A stretch of DNA of 64,000 nucleotides from Flavobacteriales bacterium (GTDB lineage: Bacteria; Bacteroidota; Bacteroidia; Flavobacteriales_F; PHOS-HE28): NCBI GenBank assembly GCA_024103275.1, contig JAGFIV010000095.1, forward strand, positions 1 to 64,000, in the 5' to 3' direction. Both the position numbers and the translations under genes were made by a program. The first letter of the stretch is position 1; the number at the start of each line of letters is the position of its first letter. Shown piece by piece: positions 5,728-61,603 of the stretch. Below the pieces are notes generated by a model that had not been told where the DNA came from, searched no databases, and was given only the letters and a program-made list of their open reading frames with translations.

Positions 5728-6435
5728 TTACCGGCACGCCTGCAGGTCCAGCACGCCTTCCAGCCGATCGATGTGCAGGTAGTCCTCCGTCCCCGATCCC
5801 TCCATCGCCGGTCCCTCGCGCATGGAGGCCGTCACCTGCACGTACAACGGCTGCGGTGGCTCCTTCACCTGTTTGGCGTATGTCTTCTCCATCTCCGGCC
5901 CCGCCCCGGGGCTGCCGGCGGGGTCCATGGCCACGGGCAGCGCAAAGCCCGCCCCGCATGGCGTGAAGCTGTGTGAATCGGCGAAGTAGACGTACCCGCC
6001 CGTGAGGTGCATGGGTAGCGGATCGATGTGCGCCACTTTCCGGATGGTGTAGTTCAGCGGGCTGTCAATGGGCTTCCCGTCGGCATCCAGGCGATGAAGC
6101 CCGTCGCTTTCCATCCGCCATTCCATGGGTTTGTGGAAGGTGGCCAAGGTGACCACATCGCCTTTCACGCTCCATTTGCCGATGGTGCCGTACGGAATGG
6201 AATCCCGCTCCAGATAGCGTTCTCGGAGCACGTAGGTGCTGTCCGCCCGAAGGTCCAATTGGGTGAGGATGCCCGGGCAATCGGCGCAGGGCAGGGTATC
6301 GGCATACAGGCCGGTCCATTCCACCACGGGCACCACGGGTGCCAGTGCGGGGGCCGGCGTCGGCTCCTGTTCTTGGTTGCCTTGGCAGGATGCAAGGATC
6401 ACGAGGCATGCGGGGATGAAGCGGACCGGTTTCAT
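5728..6435 (-). CDS. NlpE-like lipoprotein
   Basis: A 235-residue lipoprotein (lipobox LASC, Cys17) with an N-terminal NlpE domain: WTGLYADTLPCADCPGI, carrying the CxxC pair at about residues 50-53, followed by LDLRADSTYVLRERYL and a beta-strand-rich core. In enterobacteria NlpE is an outer-membrane lipoprotein that signals surface and copper stress to Cpx. Bacteroidota homologues have no proven role. The C-terminal ~90 residues are an extra domain. The CxxC could bind a metal or form a disulfide. It is divergent from wbqC. Confidence 0.8.
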   Translation of the reverse strand: MKPVRFIPACLVILASCQGNQEQEPTPAPALAPVVPVVEWTGLYADTLPCADCPGILTQLDLRADSTYVLRERYLERDSIPYGTIGKWSVKGDVVTLATFHKPMEWRMESDGLHRLDADGKPIDSPLNYTIRKVAHIDPLPMHLTGGYVYFADSHSFTPCGAGFALPVAMDPAGSPGAGPEMEKTYAKQVKEPPQPLYVQVTASMREGPAMEGSGTEDYLHIDRLEGVLDLQACR

Positions 6436-6494
6436 TGGCCGTGTTTTTCAATTCGTGGTGCAAAGCAACAAGAACGGGGCGACCTTTGTTCCGC

Positions 6495-7130
6495 ATGCCC
6501 GGCACTCCCCTGTTTTCCGCGTTCTACTTCGGGAGCGTGGAACACTACGCGTTGATCGCCCGCCATCCGCGGATCATCATCGACACCGGTGAGCACTACC
6601 TGCGGCAGAGCTACCGCACGCGCACCGGCATCCTCGGGGCCAACGGCATGCAGCAGTTGCAGGTCCACATCGCCCGGCAGGGCGGGCAGAAGATGCCCAT
6701 GCACGGCGTGGGCCTTTCCTACGATGAGCCGTGGCATGCGCGTCACCTGCACGCCATCCGGAGTGCCTACGGCAAAACGCCTTGGTTCATCCATTTCATC
6801 GGGGACATCGAGGCCGTGCTGCGCCGCCGCCATGACCGCCTGGTGGACCTCGACCTGGCCACCCTGCACATGGCCTTGGGATGGCTGGGCATGAAGACCG
6901 GGGTGGAGGTCCGGGAGCGCTACGTGGAACAGGAGGAAGTGGCGGCCCTTGACCTGTTGGACCTGCGCACGGCGTTGCACCCGAAGAAGGCGCTGCCGCC
7001 CGCCATGCCTGCCGTGGCCCCTTACACCCAGGTCTTCGCGGACCGCCACGGCTTCCATGGCCGCCTCAGCATCATCGACCTGGTGATGAACTGCGGCCCC
7101 GAGGCCTGCCGGGTGCTGGCCCGCTGCTAG
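6495..7130 (+). CDS. WbqC-like family protein
   Basis: A 211-residue WbqC-like protein. Recognisable pieces are FYFGSVEHYALIARHP near the N-terminus, then GEHYLRQSYRTRTGILGANGMQ and a Trp/His-rich helical part. The family is common in Bacteroidota and sits in polysaccharide gene clusters, but its reaction is unknown. The frame opens at 6435. The ATG at 6495 is preferred because it starts the family motif and lies six bases after a GACCTTTG -7-like box. Its TAG stop overlaps the convergent sulfatase stop inside a CTAG palindrome. Confidence 0.85.
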   Translation: MPGTPLFSAFYFGSVEHYALIARHPRIIIDTGEHYLRQSYRTRTGILGANGMQQLQVHIARQGGQKMPMHGVGLSYDEPWHARHLHAIRSAYGKTPWFIHFIGDIEAVLRRRHDRLVDLDLATLHMALGWLGMKTGVEVRERYVEQEEVAALDLLDLRTALHPKKALPPAMPAVAPYTQVFADRHGFHGRLSIIDLVMNCGPEACRVLARC

Positions 7131-33489: not shown

Positions 33490-33680
33490 CTATTTGGGGG
33501 TGATCAGCCCAAAGCGGTAGTCTTTCTTGCGGCTGGCGCAGATGAACATTTCCTTGTTCTCCAGTTCCACGCAATCCATGGGCCGCTCCACCTCCGTTGC
33601 ACCTGGGTCTTGGTGATCTTCCTTTGGGCGGATAGGGGGAGGGTCAATGGAAGGAAAGCGAGGAGGGTGAGGCTTTTCAT
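33490..33680 (-). pseudogene. Small secreted-protein gene with apparent frameshift
   Basis: The ATG at 33680 opens a clear signal peptide (MKSLTLLAFLPLTLPLSAQ) followed by RKITKTQVQ. That frame then turns into Trp/Arg-rich shadow-like sequence and stops at 33504. The neighbouring frame over the same DNA reads ATEVERPMDCVELENKEMF and continues to a TAG at 33490 with protein-like composition. The simplest explanation is a one-base frameshift near 33595, either a real mutation or a sequence error. The intact product would be about 63 residues and exported. No family is recognised. Confidence 0.4.
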
Positions 33681-53870: not shown

Positions 53871-54830
53871 TCACTCCTGCCCGAAGCTGTATGTGAGCCC
53901 GGCCAGAAAGCGATCGCGGTTGGGCACCATGGCGGCACCCATGTCGTTGACCAATGCATGCTGCCAGGCCAGCTGCAGGCCCAGTTGCCGCCACCACACC
54001 TGCATGCCCAAGCTGCTGAACAACGTGTTGCCCCCGGTCGTGGGATCCGGCACGCCGTGCATCTCGTCCTCCAGCATGGTCTCCCCGTATACGCCTGCCG
54101 ATGGCAACAGGCTGACAGGCTTGATGGGGATGATGCGGAAGACCTCAGCCGTGAAGGTGCCCGCGTGGCCCATGCGGTGCCCGTCCGCCGCTTCGGTGTT
54201 GTAGCGCCCCACGGCACTGAGGCTTCCGCCCCAAGCCGTACTCCGTACCACATACTCCAGGCTCACCATGGGGTCCCAGGTGCCGGTGCCGGGCTGCAGG
54301 TCGTAGTCGAGCCGTTCGCCATGCTGCACCACGTCCGTGCGGCCCAAGGGTAGGCTTACGCCCAGGCCCACGGTGAAGCGGTGGCGGAGGCGCACCGTGT
54401 CCAACCCCGTGGTGGACGCAAACAACGCGTAGCGCGCGAGCAGTACGGGATCGCCCACGGCATAGAGGTCGGCGTGGGCCGCCCCGTTCACGGCTTGCAG
54501 GTTCTTCAGCAGGGGGATGCTGGCGGAAAGGCTGGCCCGGTCATTGATCCACACTTGTCCGCGCGCCTCCAGCACGGAATAGACCTCCACATATTCGGCC
54601 TGGGTCAGTTCGGGCGCACCGTGGCTGTGCCCGCCATGCTTGAGGATCCGTGTCTCCTCCACCGGCACCAGCAGGTCACCCCGGAGGTAGCGCATGCGGT
54701 ATTGCAGGCCGAAATTGTTGGCGTGGTCCTTGGGCTGCACGCCGAGCAGCAGGCCGCAACTGCACTGGTCGCAGGCCACGGAGGGCAGCGCAAAAAGCAC
54801 GAGCGCGCCCATCACGAAAAGACTCTTCAT
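53871..54830 (-). CDS. Outer-membrane beta-barrel-like protein with CDQCSCG motif
   Basis: A 319-residue secreted protein. The signal peptide ends ALPSVA and is followed at once by CDQCSCG, a CxxCxC cluster, then a His-rich loop (KHGGHSHG). Alternating aromatic/hydrophobic strands run to a terminal Phe-containing segment (RFLAGLTYSFGQE), as in outer-membrane barrels. Similar Bacteroidota proteins are labelled transporter or hypothetical. The Cys and His clusters near the mature N-terminus suggest metal contact. It is 61 bp downstream of the CHxxC protein gene on the same strand. Confidence 0.7.
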   Translation of the reverse strand: MKSLFVMGALVLFALPSVACDQCSCGLLLGVQPKDHANNFGLQYRMRYLRGDLLVPVEETRILKHGGHSHGAPELTQAEYVEVYSVLEARGQVWINDRASLSASIPLLKNLQAVNGAAHADLYAVGDPVLLARYALFASTTGLDTVRLRHRFTVGLGVSLPLGRTDVVQHGERLDYDLQPGTGTWDPMVSLEYVVRSTAWGGSLSAVGRYNTEAADGHRMGHAGTFTAEVFRIIPIKPVSLLPSAGVYGETMLEDEMHGVPDPTTGGNTLFSSLGMQVWWRQLGLQLAWQHALVNDMGAAMVPNRDRFLAGLTYSFGQE

Positions 54831-54891
54831 GGTTATTGAATGAAAGGTGGGACAAACGATGCAAAAGCCGTCCTGATGGACGTGGTTGCAT

Positions 54892-55263
54892 TCAGCACCA
54901 AGGCACCGTCGTCACCGGCCACGGATAACCCGCCAAGATGGAACCCGCCATTTCCACGCCAAGCTGCGTCGGCCCGCTTTCCGGCACGGACAGCGCCAAC
55001 GGCTCCTCAACGGGCAGTGTGTCGCCGATCCTCAATGACCGGATCTGGTCCGGCAGGTTGTGCTCCTGCGCCTTGGAGGTGGCCAACCGCTTGGCCAGTT
55101 GGCATTCCCCATGGCAGGTACGTTGCCCGTCCGGCACCATGCGTTGCACGCATAACTCGCGTTCCACGCGGCTGCGTTCCATCATGAAATCGGCCACGAT
55201 CCAACCGGGCGCGAATGTCACCGCCATGAAATGGACCAGGAGAAAAACAGCCAAGCCACGCAT
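54892..55263 (-). CDS. Small secreted/membrane protein with CHGECQLAK motif
   Basis: A 123-residue protein: a hydrophobic N-terminal signal or TM helix (LAVFLLVHFMAVTFAPGWIVADF), then ERELCVQRMVPDGQRTCHGECQLAKRL, and a variable C-terminus. The C-x~12-CHGEC-L-K pattern matches, from memory, a frequent but undescribed Bacteroidota family with the core CNGKC-L-K, often near TonB receptors. Three close Cys with His suggest metal or disulfide chemistry. First gene of the pair with 53871-54830, divergent from the TonB receptor operon. Confidence 0.7.
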   Translation of the reverse strand: MRGLAVFLLVHFMAVTFAPGWIVADFMMERSRVERELCVQRMVPDGQRTCHGECQLAKRLATSKAQEHNLPDQIRSLRIGDTLPVEEPLALSVPESGPTQLGVEMAGSILAGYPWPVTTVPWC

Positions 55264-55411
55264 CGGATCACCTTCCCAACAACACGCAGGTCAGCGCGAG
55301 GTTCATTTGCAGGGGCCCGCCATGGCCCTACTGCTTGGATGCCCGGACCGTTTTCCGGTTACGATCCATCCGGTGGCCCGGCCCTGTTGCCAAAGGTCGC
55401 ATGGCGGACGC

Positions 55412-55419
55412 TAAGTTTG
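55412..55419 (+). promoter_or_regulatory. -7 box TAAGTTTG before the receptor operon
   Basis: Exact TAnnTTTG, six bases before the ATG at 55426, in the 162-bp divergent gap. It predicts a near-leaderless operon transcript. Confidence 0.55.
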
Positions 55420-55425
55420 CACACG

Positions 55426-55785
55426 ATGCGGATGAGCCGAGCGCGCCTGACGGCCTTTTGGCTGCTGCTGCTGCCCATGGCCTTGGTGGTGGTGCCGCGC
55501 CAAGCGATGCACCATTGCGTGGTGGAAGCACAGGCGGAAGCCAATGGGCCTGCACCGGCCCAAGGCCATCACCACGGGGATGATGGCGGAACGACGGACG
55601 GCGCCCAGGTGCAGGCAGCTTGTGCGATCTGTCAATTGCATGTGATCCCGGCCGTGGCACCCGCACCGTCCATGCCCGGCCATGTGGAAGGCCTGGCCTG
55701 CCCCTTGCCGGTACTGGACATTGCCCATCCCCTGACGGCCCCGCGCCATTTGTTGGCCAACCGGGGCCCGCCAGCACGGGCCTGA
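55426..55785 (+). CDS. Small secreted His/Cys protein upstream of TonB receptor
   Basis: A 119-residue exported protein: signal segment LTAFWLLLLPMALVVVP, then MHHCVVEA, GHHHGDD and ACAICQLH, a C-x2-C-x2-H cluster. A Pro/Ala-rich tail follows. The layout recalls DUF2946-type small proteins found with copper-linked TonB receptors in Proteobacteria, though the match is only by pattern. The start at 55426 is set by the promoter box, and in-frame codons back to 55231 precede it. The receptor gene follows after 91 bp. Confidence 0.7.
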   Translation: MRMSRARLTAFWLLLLPMALVVVPRQAMHHCVVEAQAEANGPAPAQGHHHGDDGGTTDGAQVQAACAICQLHVIPAVAPAPSMPGHVEGLACPLPVLDIAHPLTAPRHLLANRGPPARA

Positions 55786-55876
55786 TCCCGGCCGCAATGG
55801 CCGGGCCGCACCGCTTCCGGTGCCTGCCTTGCCTGCAAGGCCCGTTTCCATTTTTCTTCCCAGGAATTGCTTCCCG

Positions 55877-58222
55877 ATGCGCGTTAAAGCCATCCCTGTT
55901 TCCCTGTCCTGCCTTTTGCCCCTGGCGTTATGCGCTCAAACGCCCTGCAACCTCACTTTGCACGGCCGGGTGGTGGATGAGCACGACGGCAGCCCGCTGG
56001 ATTTTACCAGTGTGGTCATCCCTGGCACCGCACATGCCGCCACCGCCGACGACCAGGGCCGGTTCACTTTGGAAGGGCTGTGCCCGCGATCGTACACCTT
56101 GCGGTTCAGCCACATCGGCTGCCTGCCACGTGAACAGCGCGTGCAGTTGCCCCATGCCGATACGCTGGTCCTTTACCTGGAACACCACGCGCTGGAACTG
56201 GCTGATGTGGAGGTGGTGGCCAAGCGGCCGGATGACCACGTCGGTCAATCGCACACCACCCTGGACCGGGCAGCTATGGAGCTGCAGGACGGCACGGGGC
56301 TCGCGGGTTTGATCGGGGACATCCCCGGGGTACAGGTGCTGCGCACGGGGCCCACCATCGGCAAGCCGATGATCCACGGCCTGGGCGGCAACCGGGTGCT
56401 GGTGCTCAACCAAGGCGTGCGGCAGGAGGACCAGCAATGGGGCAGCGAGCATGCGCCCAACCTGGACCCGCTGAGCAGCGACCGCATCACCGTGGTGAAG
56501 GGTGCGGCAGGCGTGCAATACGGCGCGGATGCCATCGGCGGGGTGGTGATCACCGAGCCGGTTGAACTTCCCGTGTCGCCGGGCCTGCGCGGCGAGGTAC
56601 AGCTGCAAGGTTCATCAAACGGGCGCGGCGGCGGTGCCGGCGGCCTGTTGGAAGGCGGCGTGAAAGGCGTGGACGGACTGGGCTGGCGCGTACAGGGCAG
56701 CGGCCTTCTGCTGGGCGACCAGCAGTCACCGGAATATGTATTGAGCAACACCGGCACCCGCGACGGCGGCGGCTCCGCGGCCATCGGATGGCGCACCCCG
56801 CGCCAAGGCATCCAGCTCTATTACAGCCTTTACCTCCGCGAACTCGGCATCCTGCGCGCCGCGCACATCGGCAACGTGGACGACCTGCAACGGGCCATCG
56901 CGACGGGAGAGCCATGGTACACCGCCCCATTCACCCATGCCATCGAAGCGCCCCGGCAAACCGTGTCCCACCAGCTTGGTAAAGCCAAGGCCTACCGTTT
57001 CCTGGGCGGGCGAAACCGCTTGGAGGCCACCTATGCCTTCCAGCTGGATGAGCGGCGGGAATACGACGTACGCCGCGGGGGCCGCAGTGACATACCCGCA
57101 CTGGACCTGCACCTGGCCACCCACACGGGCGAGGGTGTCTTCAAGCATTTCATCGGCGAACGCCTCCACGGCAAGGCGGGCATCAACGCCCTGTACCAGG
57201 AAAACCTGAACGTGCCCGGCACGGGGGTGCGGCCGCTCATCCCCAACTACCGGAAACGGAACGGTGGCGTGTTCGCCGTGGAACACCTGGACCTGGGCGC
57301 CAACCTGGAACTGGAGGCCGGTGCCCGCCTGGAAGCCACCCGGTTGGAGGTGTACAAGTACACCCTGGCGGGCGGCTTCATCACCCCGGTGCATGCCTAC
57401 ACCGACCATGCGCTCAGCTTCGGGCTGAACTGGGGTATCCGCGACAGCCTTCGCCTGCGTGCCAACATCGGCACGGCCTTCCGCCCCCCGCAGGTAAGCG
57501 AGTTGTACAGTGAAGGACTCCACCACGGCACGGCGGCCATCGAGGTGGGCGATCCCGGCCTGGGCAGCGAGCATGCCGTGAAAGCCTCCGCCGAATTGGA
57601 GGCATACGCCCTGCATGGCCGATTGCGGTTGAACCTCAGCGGTCATGGCTCGCGCCTAGGCGGGTTCATCCAACTGCAACCCGACGGCTTCCAGCTCACC
57701 ATCCGCGGTGCATTCCCGGTGTTCCGCTACACGGCCACCGATGCCTGGATCTACGGGCTGGACGGCGAGGCCGAGTGGAACTTCCTTCCGCATTGGGCAC
57801 TGCGGCCCCGGCTCAGCCTGGTGCGTGGCCGCGACCTTCAAGCCCATGCATGGCTTTATCAAATGCCCGCTGACCGGCTCGCCAACAGCCTGATCTTCCG
57901 CATCCCGGAAGCGGGCCGCTGGCATGCCTTGGAGTGCAGCCTCACCGCCACCGTCGTGTTCCATCAATCGCGTGCACCCATGGGCATCGACTTCATGGAG
58001 CCACCGCGCGGTTATCACCTCCTGGGCCTTTCCACGGGCGTGGGACGATCCTTGGGCCACGGCGAATTGCGGCTGGGGCTGGAAGGTTCCAACCTGCTCA
58101 ATGCGGCCTACCGGGACTACCTCGATGCCTTCCGCTACTATGCCGATGCGCGCGGCACGGACGTTTCCGTGTGGGTGCGCTACTCCTTCGGCGGAAAAGC
58201 ACGACCGCCGCACGGCGAATGA
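55877..58222 (+). CDS. TonB-dependent receptor, probable metal receptor
   Basis: A 781-residue outer-membrane receptor. The signal peptide ends ALCAQ. A carboxypeptidase-regulatory-like domain follows (LHGRVVDEHDGSPLDFTSVV, about 25-105), then the plug (LAGLIGDIPGVQVLRTGP, MIHGLGGNRVLVLNQGVRQ, VVKGAAGVQYGADAIGGVV) and a 22-strand barrel to the end. The HGLGGNRV plug and the small His/Cys neighbour fit zinc/copper-type receptors (ZnuD/OprC-like) better than siderophore receptors. This is inference. The start is 55877. The lipoprotein gene follows after 40 bp. Confidence 0.9.
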   Translation: MRVKAIPVSLSCLLPLALCAQTPCNLTLHGRVVDEHDGSPLDFTSVVIPGTAHAATADDQGRFTLEGLCPRSYTLRFSHIGCLPREQRVQLPHADTLVLYLEHHALELADVEVVAKRPDDHVGQSHTTLDRAAMELQDGTGLAGLIGDIPGVQVLRTGPTIGKPMIHGLGGNRVLVLNQGVRQEDQQWGSEHAPNLDPLSSDRITVVKGAAGVQYGADAIGGVVITEPVELPVSPGLRGEVQLQGSSNGRGGGAGGLLEGGVKGVDGLGWRVQGSGLLLGDQQSPEYVLSNTGTRDGGGSAAIGWRTPRQGIQLYYSLYLRELGILRAAHIGNVDDLQRAIATGEPWYTAPFTHAIEAPRQTVSHQLGKAKAYRFLGGRNRLEATYAFQLDERREYDVRRGGRSDIPALDLHLATHTGEGVFKHFIGERLHGKAGINALYQENLNVPGTGVRPLIPNYRKRNGGVFAVEHLDLGANLELEAGARLEATRLEVYKYTLAGGFITPVHAYTDHALSFGLNWGIRDSLRLRANIGTAFRPPQVSELYSEGLHHGTAAIEVGDPGLGSEHAVKASAELEAYALHGRLRLNLSGHGSRLGGFIQLQPDGFQLTIRGAFPVFRYTATDAWIYGLDGEAEWNFLPHWALRPRLSLVRGRDLQAHAWLYQMPADRLANSLIFRIPEAGRWHALECSLTATVVFHQSRAPMGIDFMEPPRGYHLLGLSTGVGRSLGHGELRLGLEGSNLLNAAYRDYLDAFRYYADARGTDVSVWVRYSFGGKARPPHGE

Positions 58223-58262
58223 CCCAACAAGAACACGAACCACGGACCTTTCACAAGACAGC

Positions 58263-58844
58263 ATGCCAATGACCAAACCGAACCTGTTCCTGCCCGTCCT
58301 TTTGGGCGCCGCCATGCTCGCAGGGTGCAACAAGGACAAGGAGGACGAACTGACCTCGCCCGCGCCGGTGAACGAGGAGGAATTGATCACCGATGCCTAC
58401 ATCCATTTCATGGATGGCGCAGGCAATACCTTCCAGTGGCATGCCCATGCCGTGGGCGGCCTGGAGGGAAGCAGCGGCCTGCAGATCGAAGCTGACACCT
58501 TGCCCGCCAACACGCAATTGCAGGCGGAGGTCATCCTGTTGAACCGCAGCGTAAGCCCGGTGGACACGGTAAGCCAGGAGGTGCTGGAGGAAGGGACGGC
58601 ACACCAGTTCTTCTTCGTGCCCAACCAAGTGCCCATCACCGTGGGCTATGCGGACCAGGACGCCAACGGGTTCCCGATCGGCCTGCACAGCGTATGGCAG
58701 ATCGGTGCGCCGGCCACCGGCGAGGTGGCTGTGCTACTGCGCCACCAGCCGATCAAGGACGCGGCCGGTGTGAGCGACGGCGACATCACCAATGCCGGCG
58801 GCAGCAACGACCTGGAGGTACACTTCCCCGCTGTGGTGCAGTAG
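58263..58844 (+). CDS. Lipoprotein of the 'type 1 periplasmic binding fold' group
   Basis: A 193-residue lipoprotein (lipobox LAGC, Cys22) with an acidic start (NKDKEDE), the block VNEEELITDAYIHF, HFMDGAG, and a C-terminal block GVSDGDITNAGGSNDLEV. From memory these blocks match a Bacteroidota group labelled 'type 1 periplasmic binding fold superfamily protein', which is usually found directly after a TonB receptor. WHAH near residue 60 could bind a metal. The role is probably ligand capture for the receptor, but no experiment is known to me. The last gene of the operon; the 218 bp after it contain nothing I can name. Confidence 0.75.
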   Translation: MPMTKPNLFLPVLLGAAMLAGCNKDKEDELTSPAPVNEEELITDAYIHFMDGAGNTFQWHAHAVGGLEGSSGLQIEADTLPANTQLQAEVILLNRSVSPVDTVSQEVLEEGTAHQFFFVPNQVPITVGYADQDANGFPIGLHSVWQIGAPATGEVAVLLRHQPIKDAAGVSDGDITNAGGSNDLEVHFPAVVQ

Positions 58845-59062: not shown

Positions 59063-61603
59063 TCAAAAACTGAAACGCATGCCCGCATAGCCCGTGATGC
59101 CCTGTTGCGGCGTATAGTTGTACTCGGTGTCGAAAACCAGCCCTCCCAGTACGTCCGACCGGTCGTTGAACGGATCACCCAGGTTCACCAACAGGTGCTC
59201 CGGCACATAGTTGAACAGGTTCTTCACGCCACCATACACCTCGATGCCGTTTTTGGCATGGTAGGTCACTTGTGCATTCACTTTCGTGAACCAGGGCGAG
59301 TACCCGGGCCTGGGGTCGTCCTCCGTACCGACCACATTGCCTTCCAGGTCATACACGTTCATTTCACCTTGTACCGGCAGGCGCATCGGGCCACGCCAGT
59401 CCCCAGTAACATCCCAGGTGAACGCCTTTCCCAGGTCATGGCCCAGCGCAAACACACCGGACCAGCGTGGCGCGTATTCAAAGTCGGAGCGCTCGATGCG
59501 GTTTCCCTCCAAGGCCCCGGTCCCGGGGTCGCGCGGCAGCTCGAACAACTGTGCCTGGTTGTAGGAGATGCCTGCATTGATGCGCAGGGGGAAGATGAAC
59601 GTAAAGGCCATATCGAGTGCACCGCCCATGTTGCGGGCGTGCTCCTTTCCGGTGACGTTGTAATAGGTCAGTGTGCGCTCGGCATCGTTTCTCGTGGGAT
59701 AGATTTTGTTGAGGAAATGCGTGTAGTATGCACTGATGTTGTAGTTGACGCTCATGTGCTCAGTCACCAGCTTCACCTCGTAGTCCAAGGTCGTGCTGAT
59801 GGACTTTTCAGGCTTCAGGTCTTCGCCGAAACGCGCTTGGTACTGGCCGCTGAGCGCGCGGTGGTCCTCGCTGAAGATATTGACAACACGGTAGCCGGTG
59901 CCCAAGCTGGCCCGAAAGGTGTGCCACGGATCCCCCGCGTACTTCAGGGCCACGCGCGGCGAGTGCACCACATTCTCATGTGAACCTGACTGCGACCGTG
60001 TCCCGTCGTGGTCCACCCGGTAGCCCAGCAGCAGGCTGGCCTTGGCGCCCAAGGTCCACAGGTCCTGCACGAACAGACCCGGCATGCGGGTGGAGAATGG
60101 GTTCTTGCCGTTGTTGGAAGCGATGGTATTATCGGTAAAGTGGATCAGGCGGTAGGTGGCCCCGGTCAGCAGGTCATGTTGGCCCACCTTCCGGTTCCAG
60201 TACACTTGTGCGAAGCCGGTCTGCTGGAGGGCCATGAACAACTCGGTCCCGTATGCCGAGTTCTGGTCATGCCGGTTGTAGGAGGCTTGGATGGTAAGGT
60301 TCTCCATGAACGGCAGTTGCCATTGGCCCACGGCTTCAAGCCGGTTGGTGAAGATGGATTCGCGGTACTTCATGTCCCTGGCGATGGCCGCGCCGGGGTC
60401 GGCGTGGTGCACGGCATCGGACCACGCATCGCGGTCGGCTTCGCTGGCGAACCAGCGTGGCATGCGGAAACCGGTGGCGTATGCTTGGTTGAAGATGGTG
60501 TAACCGTTGGGCAGCACGTAGTCCGCATTAAAGCCCGGTGAGGCGTGATCGTTGTCGTATGGCACGAAGTCCACGACTCCGCGGTCTCCCGCGTTCCATC
60601 CCGCCTCCCCGCCATTACGATCCTCGTGGTAATACCGCAGCGAGATGCCGGCAGCCCGCCCCCCTCGCTGCTTGATGTCCCATTTGTTGAACACGGACCA
60701 GCGTTTTTGCAGGGTCTTGTCGATGAAGCCGTCGCGGTCCTGGTCATGTTCCACGTCGAAGTGGTAACCGTCCAAGCTGAACAGCGTGGACACCTTGTCG
60801 CCCACCTTCTGGCCGAAGCCCATATTGCCGGTCATCTCTCCCCAAGTGGAAGCATTCATGTCCATGAAGAAGCTCGGTGCCATGGTTCCGCTCTTGGTAA
60901 TCACGTTGATCACCCCGCCGATGGCCTCGGAGCCATAGAGGGATGAGGCCGGTCCCTTCACGATCTCCACATGGTCGATGATGCCGTTGGGGATGCCGTT
61001 TAGCCCATAAACCGATGAAAGTGCACTGACGATGGGCATGCCGTCAATGAGGATCATGGTGTAGGGGCCGGGCATGCCGTTGATGCCGATGTCGGCTGTG
61101 TTGCAGGCATTGCAGTTCACCTGGGGATTGATGCCGTTCACCGCGTATAGCGCATCCAGGATATTGGATGTCGGGTTGCGCTCAAAGGTCTTGGCGGACA
61201 ACAGTGTAATGGGTACCGGGCTGTCCGCCATACGCATGCCTTTCAACGTGCCTGTCACCACCACTTCGTCCAGCTCCCGGCTGGCCTCCTGCAAGCGCAA
61301 GCGCCCCAGGTCCAGCTGCTGGCCCGGCAATAGATCAAACCGTTTTTCAAGTTCATTGAAACCCATCGCCGAGACCATGAGCACCTGTCGGCCTGCAGGC
61401 ACGCCCGGCAGGAAAAAGCGCCCTTGCCCATCGGAAGTGGCCCCTTGGGCCCAGCCCTTGATCGCCACACTGGCAAACGGCACCGCTTCGTTGCCACTGG
61501 TCAACGTGCCCAATATACTTCCGGTTTGCGCGGCAGCGGCAATGGATGCGCAGCATGCCACAAGCAAGGCCGTGCGCCCAGATTTTAGTTTATTTGAATA
61601 CAT
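59063..61603 (-). CDS. TonB-dependent receptor with NCNACN plug motif
   Basis: An 846-residue receptor. The signal peptide ends AAAAQ, followed by a carboxypeptidase-regulatory-like domain (GSILGTLTSGNEAVPFASVAI), a plug with LDEVVVTGTLKGM, and the unusual NPQVNCNACNTADIGINGMP carrying a CxxC. Then come LIDGMPIVSALSSVYGLNG and VEIVKGPASSLYGSEAIGG, and a barrel ending AGMRFSF. The Cys pair sits in the plug loop facing the outside and suggests a thiophilic metal or a disulfide. A TACATTTG box ends seven bases before the ATG. It converges on the receptor operon to its left and is divergent from the receptor at 61718. Confidence 0.9.
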   Translation of the reverse strand: MYSNKLKSGRTALLVACCASIAAAAQTGSILGTLTSGNEAVPFASVAIKGWAQGATSDGQGRFFLPGVPAGRQVLMVSAMGFNELEKRFDLLPGQQLDLGRLRLQEASRELDEVVVTGTLKGMRMADSPVPITLLSAKTFERNPTSNILDALYAVNGINPQVNCNACNTADIGINGMPGPYTMILIDGMPIVSALSSVYGLNGIPNGIIDHVEIVKGPASSLYGSEAIGGVINVITKSGTMAPSFFMDMNASTWGEMTGNMGFGQKVGDKVSTLFSLDGYHFDVEHDQDRDGFIDKTLQKRWSVFNKWDIKQRGGRAAGISLRYYHEDRNGGEAGWNAGDRGVVDFVPYDNDHASPGFNADYVLPNGYTIFNQAYATGFRMPRWFASEADRDAWSDAVHHADPGAAIARDMKYRESIFTNRLEAVGQWQLPFMENLTIQASYNRHDQNSAYGTELFMALQQTGFAQVYWNRKVGQHDLLTGATYRLIHFTDNTIASNNGKNPFSTRMPGLFVQDLWTLGAKASLLLGYRVDHDGTRSQSGSHENVVHSPRVALKYAGDPWHTFRASLGTGYRVVNIFSEDHRALSGQYQARFGEDLKPEKSISTTLDYEVKLVTEHMSVNYNISAYYTHFLNKIYPTRNDAERTLTYYNVTGKEHARNMGGALDMAFTFIFPLRINAGISYNQAQLFELPRDPGTGALEGNRIERSDFEYAPRWSGVFALGHDLGKAFTWDVTGDWRGPMRLPVQGEMNVYDLEGNVVGTEDDPRPGYSPWFTKVNAQVTYHAKNGIEVYGGVKNLFNYVPEHLLVNLGDPFNDRSDVLGGLVFDTEYNYTPQQGITGYAGMRFSF

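Follow-up and report, generated by a model that had tools for sequence, protein, structure and literature searches.

A ZnuD-like receptor operon with a CruR-type leader, probably for zinc uptake, abuts a separate leader-barrel operon in a Flavobacteriales bacterium

Introduction

Among metal-sensing arrest peptides, those for copper are established (CruR and CutF), and others are suspected for nickel and cobalt. CruR is a copper-sensing arrest peptide of Bordetella, and it heads cruR-bfrG/crtA-bp2921 of Bordetella pertussis (PMC9426467, PMC12914433). It has 45 residues between its CXXC and its RAPP motif, and 3 residues after the motif (PMC9426467). According to a recent survey, the arrest by CruR was shown in vitro, RGPP arrests strongly in other contexts, and RAPP/RGPP uORFs have been reported before TonB genes throughout Gram-negative bacteria (PMC12992588). 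CutF-like proteins have a CxxxC and a PP near the end and are encoded upstream of metal genes; 40% of them come from Bacteroidota after normalisation (PMC9973294). RAPP/RGPP metal leaders before TonB genes are thus already known in bulk, and so are CutF-like leaders in Bacteroidota. Our literature search found no bacterial zinc-sensing arrest peptide, which is weak evidence of absence. The nearest hint of one is CzcI, which is CutF-like, is encoded before czcCBA and lacks the proline motif (PMC9973294).

Two further systems are relevant. The outer-membrane receptor ZnuD of Neisseria has a high-affinity zinc site formed by D99 (also printed as D90), H100, E340 and H499 (PMC4557270). MopE and CorA, relatives of MbnP/MbnH, are copper-binding or copper-repressed (PMC3621798); this link to copper is taken from other families.

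Here, we analysed a 64,000-nucleotide stretch (the window) of a Flavobacteriales genome, in which five genes for small Cys/His-rich proteins, a barrel-like protein, a TonB-dependent receptor and a lipoprotein lie together.

Results

The island consists of two operons

The five ORFs lay on both sides of one divergent gap of 162 bp, at the coordinates of the original prediction (Table 1). All five genes are real and not chance ORFs, because the receptor has recognisable domains, the lipoprotein and barrel families recur, and homologues of the CHGEC protein are repeatedly encoded ahead of the barrel. Within the genus of the window, the barrel family was found in 34 of 45 genomes and the lipoprotein family in 33; among 198 sampled Bacteroidota genomes the numbers were 33 and 39, respectively. 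No other genome of the genus had the barrel and the lipoprotein adjacent, and mostly they were on separate contigs. The near-complete genomes G010 and G024 carried both on one contig, far apart. The two halves were also apart in all seven genomes of the phylum that had matches to both. In conclusion, two otherwise unrelated operons make up the island and happen to adjoin in the window genome.

The five genes had been predicted to be one complete outer-envelope metal system for copper or zinc, with the two small proteins as secreted ligands for capture or for the periplasm. The divergent gap common to both halves, the signal-peptide-like N-termini and the Cys/His content of the small proteins agree with this. 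However, the halves never occurred together elsewhere, so the complete system failed the test of co-occurrence. The five families did not recur as a unit, although a leader recurred with the receptor and the lipoprotein, and the CHGEC leader with the barrel, the latter also with MbnP and MbnH. Moreover, the leaders of the P0003 type are unconserved outside CXXC and a C-terminal [RK]xPP, which fits a nascent-chain sensor rather than a binding protein, and the stop codon stands at a fixed distance in both small-protein families. We consider both parts of this prediction probably wrong and the reading as a whole very improbable. Its more general proposal that the genes concern transition metals held.

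A second, unrelated TonB receptor (59063-61603, 846 aa, NCNACNTADIGINGMPGPYTMILIDGMPI plug) is convergent to the lipoprotein. A Zur-like gene stands at its place in the congener G043.

Table 1. Coordinates of the genes and candidate elements in the window.
Feature	Position	Strand	Remarks
Barrel-like protein P0001	53871..54830	-	319 aa; mature N-terminus CDQCSCG
CHGEC leader ORF P0002	54892..55263	-	123 aa; CHGECQLAKRL; CutF-like anatomy (CxxxC); ends PVTTVPWC-stop
Codons of VPWC, genus-conserved C-terminus of P0002	54895..54906	-	
Divergent promoter gap, 162 bp	55264..55425	.	box TGCAACNNNGTTGCA absent
CruR-like leader ORF P0003	55426..55785	+	119 aa; HHC, HHH, CAICQLH
CXXC codons (CAIC, P0003 residues 66-69), candidate metal sensor	55621..55632	+	sequence; family conservation
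RGPP codons (P0003 residues 113-116), candidate ribosome arrest site	55762..55773	+	sequence; family conservation
C>G stretch at leader end and gap, candidate Rho utilisation site	55640..55900	+	base composition
Leader-receptor gap, 91 nt	55786..55876	+	
ZnuD-like TonB-dependent receptor P0004	55877..58222	+	domains, profile match, AlphaFold model
Codon of invariant H192 (plug)	56450..56452	+	alignment counterpart of H100, a zinc ligand of ZnuD
Codon of invariant H549 (ELYSEGLHHG)	57521..57523	+	alignment counterpart of H499, a zinc ligand of ZnuD
Lipoprotein P0005, surface or periplasmic	58263..58844	+	beta-sandwich; invariant H114, H161, D183

The rightward operon starts with a CruR-like leader

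P0003 heads an operon that includes a TonB receptor gene, as CruR does. Its CAIC is followed by 43 residues, RGPP and ARA-stop, which agrees with the spacing used to recognise CruR (CXXC, 45 ± 2 residues, C-terminal RAPP) with RGPP as a RAPP-like variant. By eye, its N-terminus is hydrophobic (LTAFWLLLLPMALVVVP). P0003 scored 21.3 bits (E 5e-4) against PF11162 (DUF2946); this is under the gathering cut-off of 23.7, and therefore we left it out of that family. The leader of locus L061 scored 20.4 bits, and the other tested leaders did not match DUF2946. CrtA receptors are recognised by a PepSY_TM partner downstream, present in over 75% of their loci, and the window operon has the lipoprotein in its place.

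With P0003 alone as the query, little was found beyond one congener, since CXXC and RxPP are its only conserved parts. Leaders were therefore identified by position and not by similarity to P0003. A leader-type ORF (CXXC, spacer, [RK]xPP, short tail, stop) was found in 57 of 141 distinct lipoprotein loci. Both cysteines of CXXC were 100% conserved across the 57 leaders, and outside CXXC and [RK]xPP nothing was. The spacer between the two motifs was 43 residues in 29 leaders and 41-47 in 48 (range 41-52), and the tail after [RK]xPP was 2-3 residues in 44. The arrest-type motif was RGPP in 31 leaders, RAPP in 15, K[APG]PP in 10 and RPPP in one. The gap to the next gene was mostly 15-290 nt in the relatives. 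A strict leader with R[AG]PP and CXXC stood before 27 of 115 receptor operons; of the 892 remaining genes at these loci, 1 had such a leader. At four loci of the genus, the leader directly preceded the lipoprotein and the receptor was absent.

The base composition changes inside the leader: from 55640 on, C makes up 35-45% and G 21-33%, whereas G is at least equal to C before this point. This stretch at the leader end and in the gap is a candidate rut site, and the change resembles that in cruR. A general fold computation gave no evident CutF-type stem-loop across the start of the receptor gene. Judged by their anatomy, both small Cys-rich proteins are probably ribosome-stalling sensors and not working parts, and P0003 would work like CruR.

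The receptor is most similar to ZnuD

P0004 contains Plug, TonB and CarboxypepD domains. In profile comparison, ZnuD was its best match (1.5e-50), followed by PhuR (7e-28) and OprC (8e-27). The closest fold to its AlphaFold model (pLDDT 89) was again ZnuD (4rdt), and the copper receptor OprC was second-best. With ZnuD as its best relative by profile and fold, the receptor falls outside the siderophore and glycan groups, in line with the original prediction. The ZnuD ligands H100 and H499 aligned with H192 and H549, which are invariant in 46 receptors, and the numbering of both was consistent with one offset of 14. The Asp preceding H100 aligned with E191 of the receptor, and the region of ZnuD E340 had no alignment with it.

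Against NF038289, the NCBIfam model of ZnuD, P0004 scored 59.4 bits, far under the cut-off of 950. Its top NCBIfam score was to TonB-hemin, with 111.8 bits where the cut-off is 316.85. This score would suit haem uptake by the receptor together with a haemophore-like lipoprotein, and so would the two facing histidines, a pair which is common to haem receptors and in this respect counts against the zinc reading. However, ZnuD itself was once misread as a haem receptor owing to two facing histidines (PMC4557270), and the operon has a Zur-like gene and MerC as neighbours, with a COG0523-type GTPase gene at one locus. Haem uptake is thus highly improbable in our judgement.

The lipoprotein is linked to the receptor and to zinc-type neighbours

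Of 117 loci, 109 had the receptor and the lipoprotein side by side. The lipoprotein model (pLDDT 89) is a beta-sandwich in which H114, H161 and D183 are invariant. Fold searches gave no function, because all matches were to generic beta-sandwiches (best Z 8.1).

MerC and a Zur-like Fur paralogue were the commonest of the recurrent informative neighbours of the receptor-lipoprotein operon. Neither a copper family nor PepSY was among the 25 commonest families in the 141 immediate neighbours of leader loci. In L092, a COG0523-looking GTPase gene (about 6011-7093, -) and a MerC gene flank a leaderless receptor-lipoprotein operon.

In four loci of the genus (L293, L294, L301 and L313), a Zur-like gene is divergent from the lipoprotein gene, after which comes MerC, and the divergent gap holds one or two TTGCAACNNNGTTGCAA boxes. 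Such loci without the receptor are candidates for a compact zinc operon.

A Zur-type box takes the place of the leader in relatives

The palindrome TTGCAACNNNGTTGCAA was found in the divergent gaps between Zur-like and lipoprotein genes of the genus, often twice. It was also found about 80 nt upstream of a COG0523 (cobW) GTPase gene in genome G041 (L325:132-1421, -), as expected of a zinc-starvation regulon. It precedes the single receptor of the congener G024, which has no leader, and in many other Bacteroidota it stands shortly before the receptor-lipoprotein operon. Judging from its position before zur-like, lipoprotein and COG0523 genes, TTGCAACNNNGTTGCAA is probably a Zur box. As to the Zur-like proteins, that of Dyadobacter had FurB/Zur as its best PDB match. 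The Fur paralogue of L061 had Fur proteins as its best matches, and sequence similarity alone did not type it as Zur.

Box and leader largely exclude each other. A box within one mismatch preceded 45 of 83 leaderless operons but only 1 of 57 leader operons (Fisher 2.8e-12); the other 38 leaderless operons had none within one mismatch. It was absent from the window operon, and the whole window contained a single match with 2 mismatches, at 33587. The window genome (G000) has no Zur-like paralogue, and its one Fur is a canonical Fur. Two exact copies in this genome (contig C90, L326, 22865 and 23035) were considered as a zinc site and rejected: they form a local direct repeat, 170 bp apart and near a tRNA-like sequence, with no zinc gene after them, and are probably a coincidence.

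On the lipoprotein tree, the leader and Zur labels interleaved, with at least 18 and at least 9 forced changes. The leader/Zur and leader/box exclusion is partly clade-structured, and independent-pairs tests on the tree, which have low power, gave no significance (median p 0.25, 0.125 and 0.625). A gain of the leader because of the loss of Zur did not hold in general, since there are congeners that possess both a Zur-like gene and the leader on the receptor operon. Several congeners have both a Zur-controlled lipoprotein-MerC operon and a separate leader-controlled receptor operon. From the distribution of box and leader, the receptor-lipoprotein operon is very probably controlled by Zur in many lineages and elsewhere by the leader.

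Zinc is the favoured metal of the rightward operon

Zinc is favoured because three independent lines point to it, namely the kinship to ZnuD, the Zur-like and MerC neighbours, and the box operator, which is the strongest. Altogether we regard zinc as quite likely to be the metal of this operon, and copper as unlikely.

The case for copper would be a Bacteroidota counterpart of cruR-crtA, in which the leader senses copper and the leader- and Zur-controlled copies differ in metal. The CruR layout with a TonB receptor downstream, the DUF2946 match of P0003 and the second-best structural match to OprC agree with it. CruR and CutF, the sole relatives of the leader that have been characterised, sense copper, which counts against a zinc leader, and the congeners with both a Zur-controlled and a leader-controlled operon make two metals possible. 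On the other hand, the PepSY_TM partner is absent, and no copper chaperone or oxidase-assembly family was among the commonest families of the 141 neighbours. ZnuD also beat OprC by profile (1.5e-50 against 8e-27). Furthermore, the same receptor family has the Zur-type box in G024 and many other Bacteroidota, and copper would require many metal switches on a tree where the labels interleave, so that it is simpler to assume one metal throughout and a change of regulators. This makes a copper operon rather unlikely to us. Since the operon of relatives has a Zur operator instead, the leader most likely reads zinc, or at least does the job of Zur.

The leftward operon is probably related to copper

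The barrel family has an invariant Cys near the mature N-terminus. Of 29 barrel homologues, 5 matched PF13557, a barrel family, and the barrel profile had no significant match to solved structures. Outside the genus, the usual operon is leader, MbnP, MbnH-like di-haem CCP_MauG protein and barrel; in L153, for example, MbnP (PF20243, E 4e-56) occurs with a di-haem CCP_MauG protein. In the genus of the window, the leader is followed by the barrel and then usually by MbnP. MbnP and MbnH are present at most barrels of the genus and the phylum and absent beside that of the window; two MbnP genes are elsewhere in the window genome (contigs C43 and C133). Because its barrel elsewhere sits in MbnP/MbnH operons, the leftward operon (55263-53871) is probably copper-related.

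A member of the P0002 family (motif C[NHD]GxCxL) stands at the front of the barrel operon in 15 of 18 loci of the genus and 17 of 23 of the phylum. The stop codon of P0002 is 62 nt upstream of the barrel start. In this family, the Cys motif and the stop codon are mostly 67 residues apart, inside and outside the genus alike. The CutF-like definition asks for CxxxC and PP within 15 residues of the C-terminus; P0002 has CHGEC, and PP is absent in all 15 members of the genus, which places P0002 outside the definition. These members instead end in VP[WR]x (15 of 15). Outside the genus, PP was within the last 12 residues of 16 of 17 homologues, with the endings [FI]HPP or FRPP. P0002 therefore looks like a CutF-like leader whose arrest motif is altered in this genus. 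VP[WR]x would possibly be a new arrest motif at the stop codon, and this choice of motif is a guess.

A third Cys/His-rich small ORF (GCHGDACAAG..., ending WNPPKSC) was observed in G043 at L061:8964-9410 (+). It directly precedes an RND-like efflux gene of 1437 aa (L061:9530-13843, +), close to the leader-receptor operon, and looks like another metal leader.

Discussion

Taken together, we find it fairly probable that the rightward operon is for ZnuD-like zinc uptake with a CruR-type leader and that the leftward one is a separate leader-barrel operon, probably for copper. That the CruR-type leader senses zinc, and swaps with a Zur operator operon by operon on one receptor-lipoprotein system, has an even chance in our estimate.

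The rightward operon (55426-58844) might work as follows. When the metal is scarce, the ribosome would stall at RGPP at the leader end and cover the C-rich rut region, and RNA polymerase would go on into the genes for the receptor and the lipoprotein. Plentiful metal would instead bind the nascent CXXC and relieve the arrest. The ribosome would leave, and Rho would end transcription ahead of the receptor gene. The ZnuD-like TonB receptor and the putative metal-binding lipoprotein would together take up zinc at the outer membrane.

The apparently new elements are a receptor-lipoprotein pair that would serve Bacteroidota as a zinc system and has a candidate Zur operator, the exchange of this operator with a CruR-type leader, the zinc-sensing arrest peptide that it implies, and the VPW variant. 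The pair is widespread in Bacteroidota and was previously unannotated, and outer-membrane zinc uptake is poorly described in this phylum. If true, the leader would be the first zinc-sensing arrest peptide, with nascent-chain control of zinc uptake in place of a repressor, and the CXXC/RxPP scaffold would be a general metal sensor able to replace one. The view of such small Cys/His proteins as metal carriers would also be corrected. The same receptor under the Zur-type box (G024) and under the leader (congeners) offers ready test pairs.

Compared with the CruR system, P0003 has the same layout of CXXC, C-terminal RxPP and short tail, with a TonB receptor downstream. It differs in having RGPP instead of RAPP and a DUF2946 score under the cut-off, a lipoprotein instead of the PepSY gene, a leader-receptor gap of 91 nt instead of 162, and an operon context of Zur, MerC and COG0523 (zinc) rather than copper. 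The RAPP/RGPP uORF survey likewise describes such uORFs before TonB receptors and strong arrest by RGPP; it reports none before copper-related genes in Bacteroidota, and in the portion examined a link to zinc or a Zur operator was not found (PMC12992588).

On the leftward side, P0002 resembles the CutF-like leaders (PMC9973294) in its CxxxC, its signal-like N-terminus and its place at the head of an operon that has copper-type genes elsewhere. It is unlike them in lacking PP in the last 15 residues (VPWC-stop) and in having a barrel, not a multicopper oxidase, downstream. The usual operon partners of the barrel, MbnP (PF20243) and a di-haem CCP_MauG protein, correspond to the MbnP/MbnH (CorA/CorB, MopE) pairs (PMC3621798), although the window copy has lost both.

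The receptor differs from ZnuD in its N-terminal CarboxypepD domain and its obligate lipoprotein partner; an equivalent of E340 was not found, and the identity is about 20%. Nevertheless, ZnuD of Neisseria (PMC4557270) is its best match by both profile and fold, and in the alignment H192 and H549 of the receptor fall on H100 and H499, two zinc ligands of ZnuD.
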